Positions 8,958-58,943 of a DNA stretch of 58,943 bases are shown here, piece by piece. This DNA is from a virus. The notes under the pieces are model-generated. The model searched no databases and was not told the DNA's origin. It worked only from the letters and a program-made list of their open reading frames with translations. The translations under genes were made by a program, and so were the position numbers. Position 1 is the first letter of the stretch, and every line of letters begins with the position of its first letter. The stretch covers positions 1 through 58,943 of the IMG/VR virus record IMGVR_UViG_3300028883_000054; one strand, given 5' to 3'.

Positions 8958-9866
8958 ATGAAATATCAACTGAATATCAATCAAAAGGCGTGGCAGAAAC
9001 ATTTTCCTGATGCGAATCTTAATCACGCGGTTATTTTAGATACGATACAAACGATGTGTACAATCCAGGGACCAGGATTGTTAAAAGACGAACAAGGGTT
9101 CACATTTATTTCTCTCAACCTCATAATTAAAGAAATACCTATGATGAGTATCAATTGCAAATCCGGAGTTTCAAAATATATACAAGATTTACAAAATTGG
9201 GGATTAATTGATACAAAAATTAACAAACGAAATCAATACATCAAGGTGACTGCAAAATATCATAAAATATTTGTCACAAATTATAATCAAGGTCAAGAAC
9301 GAGGTGTTCACTCAGATGAACAAGGTGTTCACTCAGATGAACAAGGTGTTCACTGTGGTGAACGAGGTGTTCACTCAGATGAACAAGGTGTTCACTGTGG
9401 TGAACGAGGTGTTCACTCAGATGAACCTATAAGTAATACTAATATAAGTAATACTACTATAAGTAATGTCGATGAATCAAAAAAAACAAGAACTTTAAAA
9501 TCTGATAAAATAAATCCAGTTAAGGAAGGAGAAACTGTAGGAACGAAACGTCCGTCCAGGATAAGTATCTTTAGGAAGAAATATGAAGATAACTTCTTAG
9601 ATAAATATTCGGAGCCTTATAATTGGGGCAATTTTGCTAAATCAGGACAACAGATTAAAAATCTTTATTCTTTCCTTGATAAAATATACGATTATAATAC
9701 TTCGGTTGAAATTATGGATAAGTGTATAGAAATATTTTTTAATAAACCAGACAGATGGGCAGAGGATGAGAAGCACCCTCTTTATATATTTATTAACAAA
9801 TTTAACAAACTTCATATTGAGTGTAAAAGTTCAGATGATAGAGTTTTGCTATTTAACGTAAATTAG
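8958..9866 (+). CDS. replication initiator, lambda-O-like with internal origin
   Basis: The N-terminal ~105 residues look like the winged-helix domain of phage replisome organisers. Residues 114-156 are six 7-aa repeats (GVHSDEQ or GVHCGER) encoded by 21-bp iterons. A low-complexity Asn/Ile/Ser/Thr stretch follows, encoded by AT-rich 15-mers. The C-terminal ~100 residues would contact the loader. The arrangement (initiator with iterons and an AT-rich unwinding zone inside its gene, then a loader gene) is that of lambda O-ori-P. The function is inferred from architecture. Confidence 0.75.
   Translation: MKYQLNINQKAWQKHFPDANLNHAVILDTIQTMCTIQGPGLLKDEQGFTFISLNLIIKEIPMMSINCKSGVSKYIQDLQNWGLIDTKINKRNQYIKVTAKYHKIFVTNYNQGQERGVHSDEQGVHSDEQGVHCGERGVHSDEQGVHCGERGVHSDEPISNTNISNTTISNVDESKKTRTLKSDKINPVKEGETVGTKRPSRISIFRKKYEDNFLDKYSEPYNWGNFAKSGQQIKNLYSFLDKIYDYNTSVEIMDKCIEIFFNKPDRWAEDEKHPLYIFINKFNKLHIECKSSDDRVLLFNVN
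9297..9426. repeat. six 21-bp iterons, probable replication origin
   Basis: Six head-to-tail units start at 9297, 9318, 9339, 9360, 9381 and 9402, with a final GAAC at 9423-9426. Each contains GTTCAC facing GTGAAC or ATGAAC, an inverted repeat suited to a dimeric protein. The two variants (CTCAGAT, CTGTGGT) are mixed. A 21-bp period is two helical turns, placing all sites on one DNA face. Confidence 0.75.
9428..9472. repeat. AT-rich 15-bp repeats, probable unwinding element
   Basis: Three 15-bp units begin TATAAGTAAT at 9428, 9443 and 9458, directly after the iterons. Their position and composition fit a duplex-unwinding element as in iteron origins. Confidence 0.65.
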
Positions 9867-42564: not shown

Positions 42565-42759
42565 TTAATCTCCTTTGTCTTCTAACATTTTAACAGTTAT
42601 CAAATTCGGTTTCATAACTAAAAACACTTGTTGTGAATCAGGATTTACATCAACTGAAACAGTTGAAATAAAATTAGTAATGTCTAAAATAAGTTCATCC
42701 TTTTTTAAAATAACTGATGTTATTTTAGAATGTTTGTTTCTTAAAATTTCAACATCCAT
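42565..42759 (-). CDS. hypothetical 64-aa protein
   Basis: The second of two close ATGs (42759) is best spaced from GAGAGGG. It is a small strand-rich protein (DLTIVTVNPD-like alternation), with no motif. Confidence 0.55.
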   Translation of the reverse strand: MDVEILRNKHSKITSVILKKDELILDITNFISTVSVDVNPDSQQVFLVMKPNLITVKMLEDKGD

Positions 42760-54712: not shown

Positions 54713-54773
54713 ACTCTTTATATTTTTATATTTATTATACTTATGTCGTATTATTTATTTTACTGTTTTATAT
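54713..54773. other. AT-rich divergent control region
   Basis: No gene. The stretch between the divergent promoters is almost purely A and T with TATA/TTATT repeats and could be melted or bound by regulators. No defined operator is recognised. Confidence 0.4.
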
Positions 54774-54831
54774 ATTTTTTTTTATTTTTTTTTATTTTTT
54801 GCTTGACTTTTTCAAATAAAATGTTTATATT
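54774..54831 (+). promoter_or_regulatory. early promoter repeat, copy 1
   Basis: Two 10-bp units (A followed by nine Ts) and a shorter T-tract precede TTGACT (54803-54808), a 17-bp spacer and TATATT (54826-54831). The block, with the ~50-base leader to the ATG, is nearly identical to 57451-57556 and 58821-58925. Phased T-tracts upstream of -35 should bend DNA and act like UP elements. Confidence 0.8.
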
Positions 54832-54878
54832 AATAATAGATAAAGGGAATAATAAAACAAACCAAACGAGGTGAAAAA

Positions 54879-55187
54879 ATGAAAACATCAAAATTTCAGA
54901 TAGCAGACGCTTTAAGTTCTAAGATGGTTGACGTAACTGCTTGGAATGTTAAATATTTAGAACATGCTAAAAAAGCAATATTTGAAAATGATGAAAAAAT
55001 CATGACAATAGAAGAAATAAAATTAAAGGTTGAAAATGAAATTGTTGGTACCACTTGGAAATTAACTATAACTACGAAAAAAGACAATAAAACTCATGTC
55101 GAATTTAGGGAGAATGAATCCGCAAAATTGGAAATATTAATGTTTGCTACATCAAGAGGATTTTTTAAAAATTTAGAAGAATTATAA
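54879..55187 (+). CDS. early protein of unknown function, complete copy
   Basis: 102 aa following CGAGGTG, first gene of promoter copy 1. An N-terminal segment (KFQIADALSSKMVDVTAWNVKYLEHA) is followed by mixed strands (WKLTITTKKDNKTHVEF) and a final helix. An almost identical second copy is split by the contig ends. No family is recognised. Confidence 0.75.
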   Translation: MKTSKFQIADALSSKMVDVTAWNVKYLEHAKKAIFENDEKIMTIEEIKLKVENEIVGTTWKLTITTKKDNKTHVEFRENESAKLEILMFATSRGFFKNLEEL

Positions 55188-55223
55188 TAACTTAATCAAG
55201 ACCTATAAACGAGGAGATACAAA

Positions 55224-55397
55224 ATGAAGACAATGACATTCACAAAGAGAGAATTAGACATGTTAAGAAGAGCGACATTTTCATTCATGGCTAGTGATGA
55301 TAGCGAAAAGTTTCAAAATGATGAAATGAATGAAATGTTTAAGAGGTTGACTAAGGCATTTAACGAAACAGAAGAAAATTCAAGCGAAGCAGCCTAA
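55224..55397 (+). CDS. small helical early protein
   Basis: 57 aa with GAGGAG nine bases before the ATG. It is helical (FTKRELDMLRRATFSFM) and acidic. Its stop codon is part of the first strand of the hammerhead ribozyme. Distant similarity in layout to the small helical proteins at 55704, 55902 and 56674. Confidence 0.7.
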   Translation: MKTMTFTKRELDMLRRATFSFMASDDSEKFQNDEMNEMFKRLTKAFNETEENSSEAA

Positions 55398-55443
55398 CTG
55401 ATGAGCTTTCAATAAGCGAAACTCCCTGCGGGGAGTCTTAGGC
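55392..55443 (+). ncRNA. hammerhead ribozyme, type I
   Basis: All core parts are exact. Stem I is GCCTAA (55392-55397) with TTAGGC (55438-55443), and the first core strand is CTGATGA (55398-55404). Stem II is GCTT/AAGC with a 5-nt loop. GAAA (55418-55421) is followed by stem III CTCCC/GGGAG with loop TGCG, then the GTC triplet. Cleavage is expected after C55437. The ends lie at stem I (type I). It sits between two early genes and would split their mRNA. Confidence 0.9.
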
Positions 55444-55468
55444 AATTAAACAAAACGAGGAGAAAGCC

Positions 55469-55660
55469 ATGAAAACGATTAAAAATAAAGAAGAATTAGA
55501 ACACGAAGCATGGAGAATAATTCTAATTATAACAGATAACTCAATACGCGGTAGTTTACCAACGGAGGGAGAAGTTAGAAGTCTTGTAATAGAAATAAAA
55601 AAATGGAATAAATGTTATAAAGATATATCTGCAGACAATATAATTAAAAATTATTTATAA
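55469..55660 (+). CDS. hypothetical 63-aa protein
   Basis: GAGGAG precedes the ATG, which would be near the 5' end of the ribozyme's 3' cleavage product. Mostly helical, with no motif. Followed by a partial ribozyme copy. Confidence 0.65.
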   Translation: MKTIKNKEELEHEAWRIILIITDNSIRGSLPTEGEVRSLVIEIKKWNKCYKDISADNIIKNYL

Positions 55661-55703
55661 GTCTAACTGATGAGCTTTTAATTAAACCAAACGAGGTAAA
55701 AAA
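55661..55703 (+). other. partial hammerhead remnant
   Basis: TCTAACTGATGAGCTTTT matches the first half of the intact ribozyme. It then joins directly to the AATTAAACCAAACGAGG leader that follows the ribozyme in the complete copy. The 3' half, with GAAA and the cleavage triplet, is missing. Confidence 0.65.
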
Positions 55704-57440: not shown

Positions 57441-57450
57441 TATTTTCTTT

Positions 57451-57508
57451 ATTTTTTTTTATTTTTTTTTATTTTTTGCTTGACTTTTTCAAATAAAATG
57501 TTTATATT
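57451..57508 (+). promoter_or_regulatory. early promoter repeat, copy 2
   Basis: Phased 10-bp T-tracts, then TTGACT (57480-57485), 17 bp and TATATT (57503-57508), matching copy 1 except for an extra A in the leader. Drives 57557 and following genes. Confidence 0.8.
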
Positions 57509-57556
57509 AATAATAGATAAAGGGAATAATAAAAACAAACCAAACGAGGTGAAAAA

Positions 57557-57991
57557 ATGAAAAATTTATATGAAATAAGAACTAGCAGACATAATTTCAG
57601 AATATTATCTAATAACCTACAAGAAGCTGAAGAACAAGCTATTGAAATTATTAAAGTTAATGACCACAATCCTAATTTTTGCGGAAAGAATATGATCGTT
57701 CATCAAATTGAGAATGATACTAATTCAAAAATTTTTCAAGAAGCTTATTATAATGAATTTTTAGCATTTTTAAATAATATCGCAGGCGAAAAACTGGAAG
57801 TTATTGTTTTTGAAATTAATTATTTAGTTGTAAATATTAAGGTTTTAGGATCGGAATTAGGTACATTAAGACTTTTTAAAAATTATTCAACCCTTACTAC
57901 TCGCGATGGAATAGATCAAGGAAAATCACCTGTAACAGGACAATTTTATTTTCAACTGCAATTTGTTGAAAAAGAAGAAAATTTCAAATAG
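57557..57991 (+). CDS. early protein related to the 671 gene N-terminus
   Basis: 144 aa, starting eight bases after GAGGTG. The NLQEAEEQAIEIIKVNDHNPNFC segment resembles DLQEAQKEAV...NPKF of the 130-aa protein at 671. The rest is strand-rich. First gene of promoter copy 2. Confidence 0.7.
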   Translation: MKNLYEIRTSRHNFRILSNNLQEAEEQAIEIIKVNDHNPNFCGKNMIVHQIENDTNSKIFQEAYYNEFLAFLNNIAGEKLEVIVFEINYLVVNIKVLGSELGTLRLFKNYSTLTTRDGIDQGKSPVTGQFYFQLQFVEKEENFK

Positions 57992-57998
57992 ATAAAAA

Positions 57999-58036
57999 CC
58001 TGAATTAATCGAGACTCCTCGGAGGGAGTCTCGAGC
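57999..58036 (+). other. intergenic hairpin, possible hammerhead relic
   Basis: A perfect 10-bp stem TCGAGACTCC (58009-58018) with GGAGTCTCGA (58025-58034). The GAGA-CTCC...GGGAGTC part aligns to the GAAA-stem III-GTC half of the intact ribozyme, and both are followed by an AATTAAMC..AACGAGG leader. The 5' core half is absent. Confidence 0.45.
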
Positions 58037-58062: not shown

Positions 58063-58344
58063 ATGATAATGTCATACAAAAGAGGATACCAAATAAAACC
58101 TAATAAAATAAACGAAAAGAAAATCATAAAAAGAAAGTATGAATTAGTAATTGACGGAAAAATCATCTGTGCTGATAATGTATATCATTATCAAGCTATT
58201 AATGAATTTGAATGGGATATTAAAGCATTTTTTTCACCTATGAATAAAACAGAATTTGAAAACTTATACAACGACTTTCAATCAGATGGAAATGGATGGA
58301 CCGCGGTGTATTTCGACCATATCGTCGAAATTCGCAGAGCGTAA
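58063..58344 (+). CDS. paralogue of the 671 gene C-terminus
   Basis: 93 aa, start after GAGGAG. KYELVIDGKII and the ending IVEIRRA match the C-terminal half of the 671 protein, and both genes are followed by the same 45-nt RNA element. The duplicated cassette supports recombination across this region. Confidence 0.75.
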   Translation: MIMSYKRGYQIKPNKINEKKIIKRKYELVIDGKIICADNVYHYQAINEFEWDIKAFFSPMNKTEFENLYNDFQSDGNGWTAVYFDHIVEIRRA

Positions 58345-58349
58345 GCACC

Positions 58350-58394
58350 CGGGCAACTGCGTAAGACGCCGTCGGTTCGCGGCCGGGTTGCCCG
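58350..58394 (+). ncRNA. structured RNA element, copy 2
   Basis: Same outer stem (CGGGCAAC/GTTGCCCG) and GCGT-AAG-ACGC hairpin as at 1069-1113. The four differences are transitions that turn G-U pairs into G-C in the third arm. Located between 58063 and 58442 genes. Confidence 0.6.
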
Positions 58395-58441
58395 CAAAGA
58401 TCTATTAAATAAGAATATTAAATAAAATCGAGGAAAAAGCC

Positions 58442-58807
58442 ATGGAAACAAAAGATCAAAACAGAGCTATAATAATTAATATGATATCTTTTAATGCGAG
58501 AAAAAATCGGTATGTCTGTAAACACTGCGGCAAAAGCTATAAGACAGGGACGGGTTGCTTTAATCATATTAAAAATAATCATATGGATCTTGTCGTTAAT
58601 GTTAGACATCAAATGATTACAAAGGAACATGGATTAGAATCCGACGATGTACGACATAGAGAACCTAAAATAAATCAATACATGATCTCAGGCGAAAGAT
58701 TTAATTTATACTTTGCAGGAAAAGAAAGTAAAGAAGCATTTAAACAGGTTATAACCGAATTAGAGGAAATGATTAAGAAAAGTGAAGTAAAAATTAGAAA
58801 AGTATAA
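58442..58807 (+). CDS. C2H2 zinc-finger protein
   Basis: 121 aa with one classical finger: CKHCGKSY...FNHIKNNH (CX2C X12 HX4H, residues 25-45). The rest is charged and helical. Classical C2H2 fingers are rare in phages; it probably binds nucleic acid and may be an early regulator. GAGGAAAA precedes the start, after the RNA element. Confidence 0.75.
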   Translation: METKDQNRAIIINMISFNARKNRYVCKHCGKSYKTGTGCFNHIKNNHMDLVVNVRHQMITKEHGLESDDVRHREPKINQYMISGERFNLYFAGKESKEAFKQVITELEEMIKKSEVKIRKV

Positions 58808-58820
58808 ACTTATGTGGTTT

Positions 58821-58878
58821 ATTTTTTTTTATTTTTTTTTATTTTTTGCTTGACTTTTTCAAATAAAATGTTTATATT
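58821..58878 (+). promoter_or_regulatory. early promoter repeat, copy 3
   Basis: Phased T-tracts, TTGACT (58850-58855), 17 bp, TATATT (58873-58878). From 58820 to the window end it is identical to 54773-54896. It drives the gene split by the contig junction. Confidence 0.8.
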
Positions 58879-58925
58879 AATAATAGATAAAGGGAATAAT
58901 AAAACAAACCAAACGAGGTGAAAAA

Positions 58926-58943
58926 ATGAAAACATCAAAATTT
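58926..58943 (+). CDS. 5' end of the junction-split early gene
   Basis: The first six codons (MKTSKF) equal the start of the 54879 gene, with the same leader and ribosome site. The gene continues at base 1 after a gap of about 142 bases. Confidence 0.8.

Follow-up and report, generated by a model that had tools for sequence, protein, structure and literature searches.

The window analyzed here, the whole 58,943-nucleotide viral record IMGVR_UViG_3300028883_000054, carries on its plus strand, flanked by two small phage genes, a type I hammerhead ribozyme with all its parts (Table 1), and we put the probability that this ribozyme is functional and punctuates a polycistronic phage mRNA at about 0.72. 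This reading is based on the structure of the element, on covariation among its relatives, on its conservation at gene junctions, on its intergenic placement on the coding strand, and on the spacing of the flanking stop and start codons.

Table 1. Positions of the ribozyme, its elements, and neighboring features in the window
Feature	Position	Strand	Description
Promoter/leader repeat	54773..54896	+	Sigma70-like TTGACT-17-TATATT at 54803-54831
First gene of the ribozyme-bearing unit, 102 aa	54879..55187	+	Without known family
Upstream gene, 57 aa	55224..55397	+	Matches no known family
Type I hammerhead ribozyme, complete	55392..55443	+	Predicted cleavage 3' of C55437
Stem I, 5' strand GCCTAA	55392..55397	+	Includes the stop TAA of the upstream gene, 55395-55397
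Core CUGAUGA	55398..55404	+	DNA letters CTGATGA
Stem II and loop	55405..55417	+	GCUU 55405-55408 / AAGC 55414-55417, loop UCAAU
GAA, stem III, and C17 (GAAA ... GUC)	55418..55437	+	GAA 55418-55420; C17 = 55437
Stem III	55421-55426 / 55431-55436	+	ACUCCC / GGGAGU, loop UGCG
Stem I, 3' strand TTAGGC	55438-55443	+	Pairs with GCCTAA
Downstream leader, 31 nt	55438..55468	+	UUAGGC, AA, Shine-Dalgarno-like ACGAGGAG
Downstream gene, 63 aa	55469..55660	+	ATG at 55469; matches no known family
Second-hammerhead remnant	55661..55680	+	GTCTAACTGATGAGCTTTTAAT, then leader TAAACC; R1 17.5 bits

Checked element by element against the published definition of the hammerhead core (PMC3088659), the window sequence has every required nucleotide: C3 U4 G5 A6 N7 G8 A9, G12 A13 A14, and H17, with A15.1-U16.1 as the first pair of stem III. 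Three helices surround this core, with no mispairs adjoining it; stems I, II, and III are 6, 4, and 6 bp long, and there is no mismatch among the 16 pairs. Stem I is open and loops close stems II and III, as in a type I hammerhead. The first-pass annotation, which was made from the sequence alone, had called a hammerhead with all invariant parts and no mismatch, and structure, covariation, and relatives bear out that call. Folded alone, a 66-nt RNA adopts exactly the hammerhead shape (−19.8 kcal/mol, z −2.2). When the window is simulated 300 times with a first-order Markov model, a strict descriptor finds no match and a looser one a single match. With longer context the energy model favors an alternative fold over the hammerhead by 2.7 kcal/mol; the median in-context probability of stem I across the hammerhead family is 0.085, so that a low value is usual, as energy models ignore tertiary contacts. 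An apparent anti-ribozyme helix, in which 55345-55357 of the upstream coding sequence would pair with 55436-55448, was considered and rejected as not special, since the low in-context stem I probability is the family norm.

The annotation had proposed a covariance-model search. Our own model, R1, trained on 59 equal-length aligned relatives that include the window sequence, scores the hammerhead at 74 bits (E = 6e-18); none of the Rfam hammerhead families reaches its curated gathering threshold in the window. The only Rfam models touching the element, RF03152 (RAGATH-1-hammerhead; 19.9 bits vs. gathering 56.3) and RF02275 (Hammerhead_HH9; 16.8 bits vs. gathering 52), align with it correctly and share its core and strand order but differ in loops and flanks. 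Sixteen loci rich in relatives likewise gave no match to Rfam at gathering. The earlier label of a “textbook” hammerhead thus holds insofar as all elements are present, but no curated Rfam model recognizes the ribozyme, and the deleted second copy downstream had been overlooked. A further R1 match in the window, at 42700 (17.4 bits, E 0.05), lacks GAAA and stem III and was dismissed as chance.

The pattern TAACTGATGAG-N6-16-CGAAAC-N6-26-GTCTTA occurs in at least 119 stretches of viral contigs, for which a rough chance estimate is well under one, and in 41 of a genome collection, most of them from Legionella and its kin and some from Bacteroidota. A hammerhead descriptor run on the fetched loci gave 248 hits, and 3 on the reversed sequences. 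Among the 123 distinct matches listed, the base pairs that the pattern leaves free form in 121, 116, and 120 (permuted means 37, 17, and 12, respectively). In the 59 aligned relatives, 13 of the 16 pairs change on both sides, with a covariation score of 0.76 vs. 0.15 when shuffled; as these rows were picked by a pairing descriptor, the score is to be read alongside the count of unfixed pairs. One topology dominates: the same loci hold 247 type I hammerheads vs. 1 of type II and 5 of type III, although the loci were chosen with a type I pattern and one of the five type III hits reuses a type I core position. In the Legionella-type hammerheads of four loci (L123, L130, L133, and L134), stem III is 3 bp long, and a conserved TGGACGTTCAAGTCGGGAAACC element lies downstream of the ribozyme.

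The family also shares features outside the core, whose nucleotides are invariant. Stem I is 6 bp long in 188 of 220 members; an A precedes it in 214 and AA follows it in most, and an A-A mismatch occupies its seventh position in 109 of the 123 matches listed. Stem II and its loop together span 13 nt in 174 of the family, with the loop consensus U-N-A-N-U. Because fast-cleaving hammerheads are known to depend on an interaction between loop II and the stem I region, we infer that the UNANU loop may contact the conserved A and AA flanking stem I. The Schistosoma mansoni hammerhead, in which a stem I bulge contacts loop II, has the same type I topology with an open stem I, whereas the window stem I consists of 6 bp with the conserved A before it and AA after it as the probable loop partner.

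Five cultured phages, Pelagibacter phages HTVC019P and Jormungand, Agrobacterium phage OLIVR1, Flavobacterium phage elemoA, and Methylophilales phage MEP301, carry one copy each; a match in Roseobacter phage CRP-7 (14 bits) is not a hammerhead. Relatives of the 57-aa and DnaJ-like neighbors were not found in viral contigs, and the region as a whole matched no named phage. The 49 terminase relatives, few of which extend to the site, contain no hammerheads, and the sequence of a contig near-identical to the window (L162) stops before the ribozyme site.

The minus strand of the window holds terminase, portal, and tape-measure-size genes, the terminase and portal being assigned from their sequences rather than by profile search; the plus strand holds small genes, a DnaJ-like gene, and a RadC-like gene. 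A cluster of small genes is arranged divergently to the terminase and portal genes; at its start, the ribozyme follows the second gene downstream of a sigma70-like promoter, a position that suggests that its flanking genes are early. The repeat containing this promoter probably starts the transcript that carries the ribozyme. No retroelement genes, the mark of retrozyme or Penelope-like hammerheads, lie near the site.

The promoter and leader repeat, ∼120 bp long, opens three small-gene units (54773-54896, 57443-57563, and 58820-58943; 97 to 100% identical). The two ends of the record, 1-168 and 58820-58943, both belong to a further copy of the first early gene, the head being 97.6% identical to 55039-55206 and the tail identical to 54773-54896; because both ends fall inside one repeat, the record is probably close to complete, with its break in that repeat. 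Another repeat, of 125 bp (91% identity), lies at the gene junctions 1046-1169 and 58327-58451, its GGGCAAC/GTTGCCC stem enclosing a variable, G+C-rich center; its 58327 copy has no match in Rfam, even at a low threshold. Tandem repeats with a 21-bp phase (9297-9426) lie in the ORF 8958-9866 and encode ERGVHSD/EQGVHSD repeats.

Placement relative to genes is regular. The upstream stop codon of the window lies inside stem I, and the downstream ATG follows 31 nt past the cut. Across the family, ORF coverage is higher on the ribozyme strand in 170 cases and on the opposite strand in 10, and only 6 of 247 hammerheads fall within a called gene. The upstream stop lies in or against stem I or CUGAUGA (−9 to +1) in 111 of 179 cases (80 of 118 pattern-selected and 31 of 61 other hammerheads), vs. 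3.5% for random positions. Counted from CUGAUGA, the stop starts at −9 (22 cases), −8 (25), −3 (41), +1 (24), or +11 (13); the commonest position, −3, is that of the window, so that the stop in stem I, pointed out in the annotation, is a regularity and not an accident. The distance from cleavage to start has a median of 27 to 28 nt and a peak at 22 to 31 nt (OLIVR1, 26 nt; elemoA, 28 nt; MEP301, 33 nt), and the annotated geometry, with a downstream mRNA beginning ∼30 nt ahead of the next gene, holds. Phage records contain 1 to 13 copies (13, 9, and 7 in the highest single records), with a median array spacing of 634 nt; one contig (L135) has nine hammerheads in 5.8 kb.

The position of the stop had led the annotation to suggest that ribosomes gate cleavage, which is plausible. 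The element could then be a translation-gated switch, in which the terminating ribosome melts the ribozyme and the message remains uncut as long as translation of the upstream gene is brisk, to be cleaved when translation slackens. A terminating ribosome covers roughly 12 nt beyond the stop and thus would cover stem I and the core, and both the enrichment of stops at −9 to +1 and the prevalence of −3 speak for such a switch. We nonetheless consider it unlikely: same-contig junctions without a hammerhead are also tight (median gap 11 nt), so that compact gene packing would bring about the overlap equally well without gating, and the spread of stop positions from −9 to +11 suits abutment better than a tuned switch.

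If the ribozyme acts as punctuation, the RNA would cut itself after C55437, presumably also in infected cells. Hammerhead chemistry leaves cyclic-phosphate and 5'-hydroxyl ends, and the body of a type I ribozyme stays on the upstream piece. The upstream piece would accordingly keep its full reading frame and stop, with stems II and III and a 2',3'-cyclic phosphate at its 3' end; as the stop lies 40 nt before the cut, cleavage would leave no stopless message. The downstream piece would start with a 5'-hydroxyl, followed by a short leader of 31 nt that contains the ribosome-binding site and is predicted to be nearly unstructured. The early transcript would in this way be split into units that decay and are translated separately, and the new ends would resist the usual 3'-exonuclease and 5'-phosphate-dependent decay, with possible effects on stability and expression.

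Comparison of orthologous junctions shows that the ribozyme is kept at 109 of 109 where the flanks are 90 to 100% identical and at 198 or more of 267 where they are less than 90% identical, a lower bound because some apparent losses reflect hammerheads whose 3-bp stem III escaped the descriptor. In 88 orthologous pairs with flanks 81% identical, base pairs changed compatibly on both sides in 97 cases and on one side in 61, and 14 pairs are broken. Orthologs diverge by 34% in the leader and 38% in the 5' flank and by 1 to 2% in the 5' strand of stem I.

These data bear on two further explanations. The element might be no more than a structured 3' end, a stable hairpin that blocks exonucleases or terminates transcription, with catalysis incidental. 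Strong plain hairpins do occur at other junctions of this phage (58010-58036, 56864-56893, and 164-195), but the core nucleotides, which are of no use to a plain hairpin, are invariant both in the family and among orthologs (partly a selection effect, as the descriptor builds some of the invariance among orthologs in), and no terminator-like site was found at the ribozyme junction; we regard this explanation as highly improbable. The hairpin at 58010 resembles hammerhead stem III plus leader. Very unlikely, too, is a selfish or drifting intergenic repeat that is copied between junctions without benefit to the phage. It would fit the several copies per genome, the near-identical stem I sequences within contigs L064 and L065 (mostly GGTTAA or GATTAA), the lack of any fixed gene neighbors noticed, and the half-deleted copy in the window; against it, stems stay paired at orthologous junctions despite diverging flanks, stems II and III vary among copies yet remain paired, and no mobility gene adjoins the window ribozyme.

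The half-deleted copy starts directly after the stop of the next gene, 270 nt downstream of the intact hammerhead. Its first half is identical to an intact hammerhead of another contig (L211). The missing part extends from the 3' strand of stem II through the 3' strand of stem I, apparently between two AAT triplets, so that GTCTAACTGATGAGCTTTTAAT is joined to TAAACCAAACGAGG and GAAA, stem III, and the cleavage site are gone. To judge from these sequences, the operon most likely once had two hammerheads and lost one; a dead copy in the same operon indicates that loss is tolerated and that cleavage at this junction is dispensable.

Hammerheads between prophage genes, their activity, and the idea that they process transcripts were already published in 2011. 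Perreault et al. described them between consecutive prophage genes of Agrobacterium tumefaciens and Azorhizobium, reported self-cleavage in vitro and in E. coli, and proposed that they split long phage transcripts (PMC3088659). The window ribozyme is likewise intergenic between phage genes. Its relatives have multiple coding-strand hammerheads, each between consecutive genes, whereas the window, from a tailed phage, has an intact copy and a deleted one; the regular distances to stop and start codons seen here go unmentioned in the text of that paper. In the Pelagibacter phage Jormungand, ArdA, MarR, and integrase genes surround the hammerhead, as in the A. tumefaciens prophage (PMC3088659); its ArdA genes lie ∼1.3 kb before the hammerhead, and the MarR and integrase genes come after it (L217, 816-1683). 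HHphage of haloviruses HF1 and HF2, located 13 nt upstream of a helicase start, stands directly before an early gene like the window ribozyme, but it was called a structural variant and belongs to an archaeal virus (PMC3088659), whereas the window ribozyme has a standard core.

What hammerheads do in bacteria and phages was called an open question by de la Pena et al. in 2017 (PMC6155905). A search of the open-access literature found nothing after 2011 on phage hammerhead arrays; as the search was confined to that literature, priority of the placement rule (a stop at the 5' end of the ribozyme, a start ∼25 nt past the cleavage site, and numerous copies in a genome) is uncertain. Curated RNA models overlook a whole group of hammerheads. 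A bolder and rather doubtful proposal is that this large, Rfam-invisible phage type I group forms a standard boundary module of stop codon, ribozyme, 25-nt leader, and start codon; occurring as many as 13 times in a genome, the module would turn operons into single-gene messages and couple each cut to translation termination upstream. The placement rule and the fact that cultured phages carry the same ribozyme make the role testable. The hundreds of phage hammerheads of the same design at gene boundaries probably chop long messages into gene-sized pieces.
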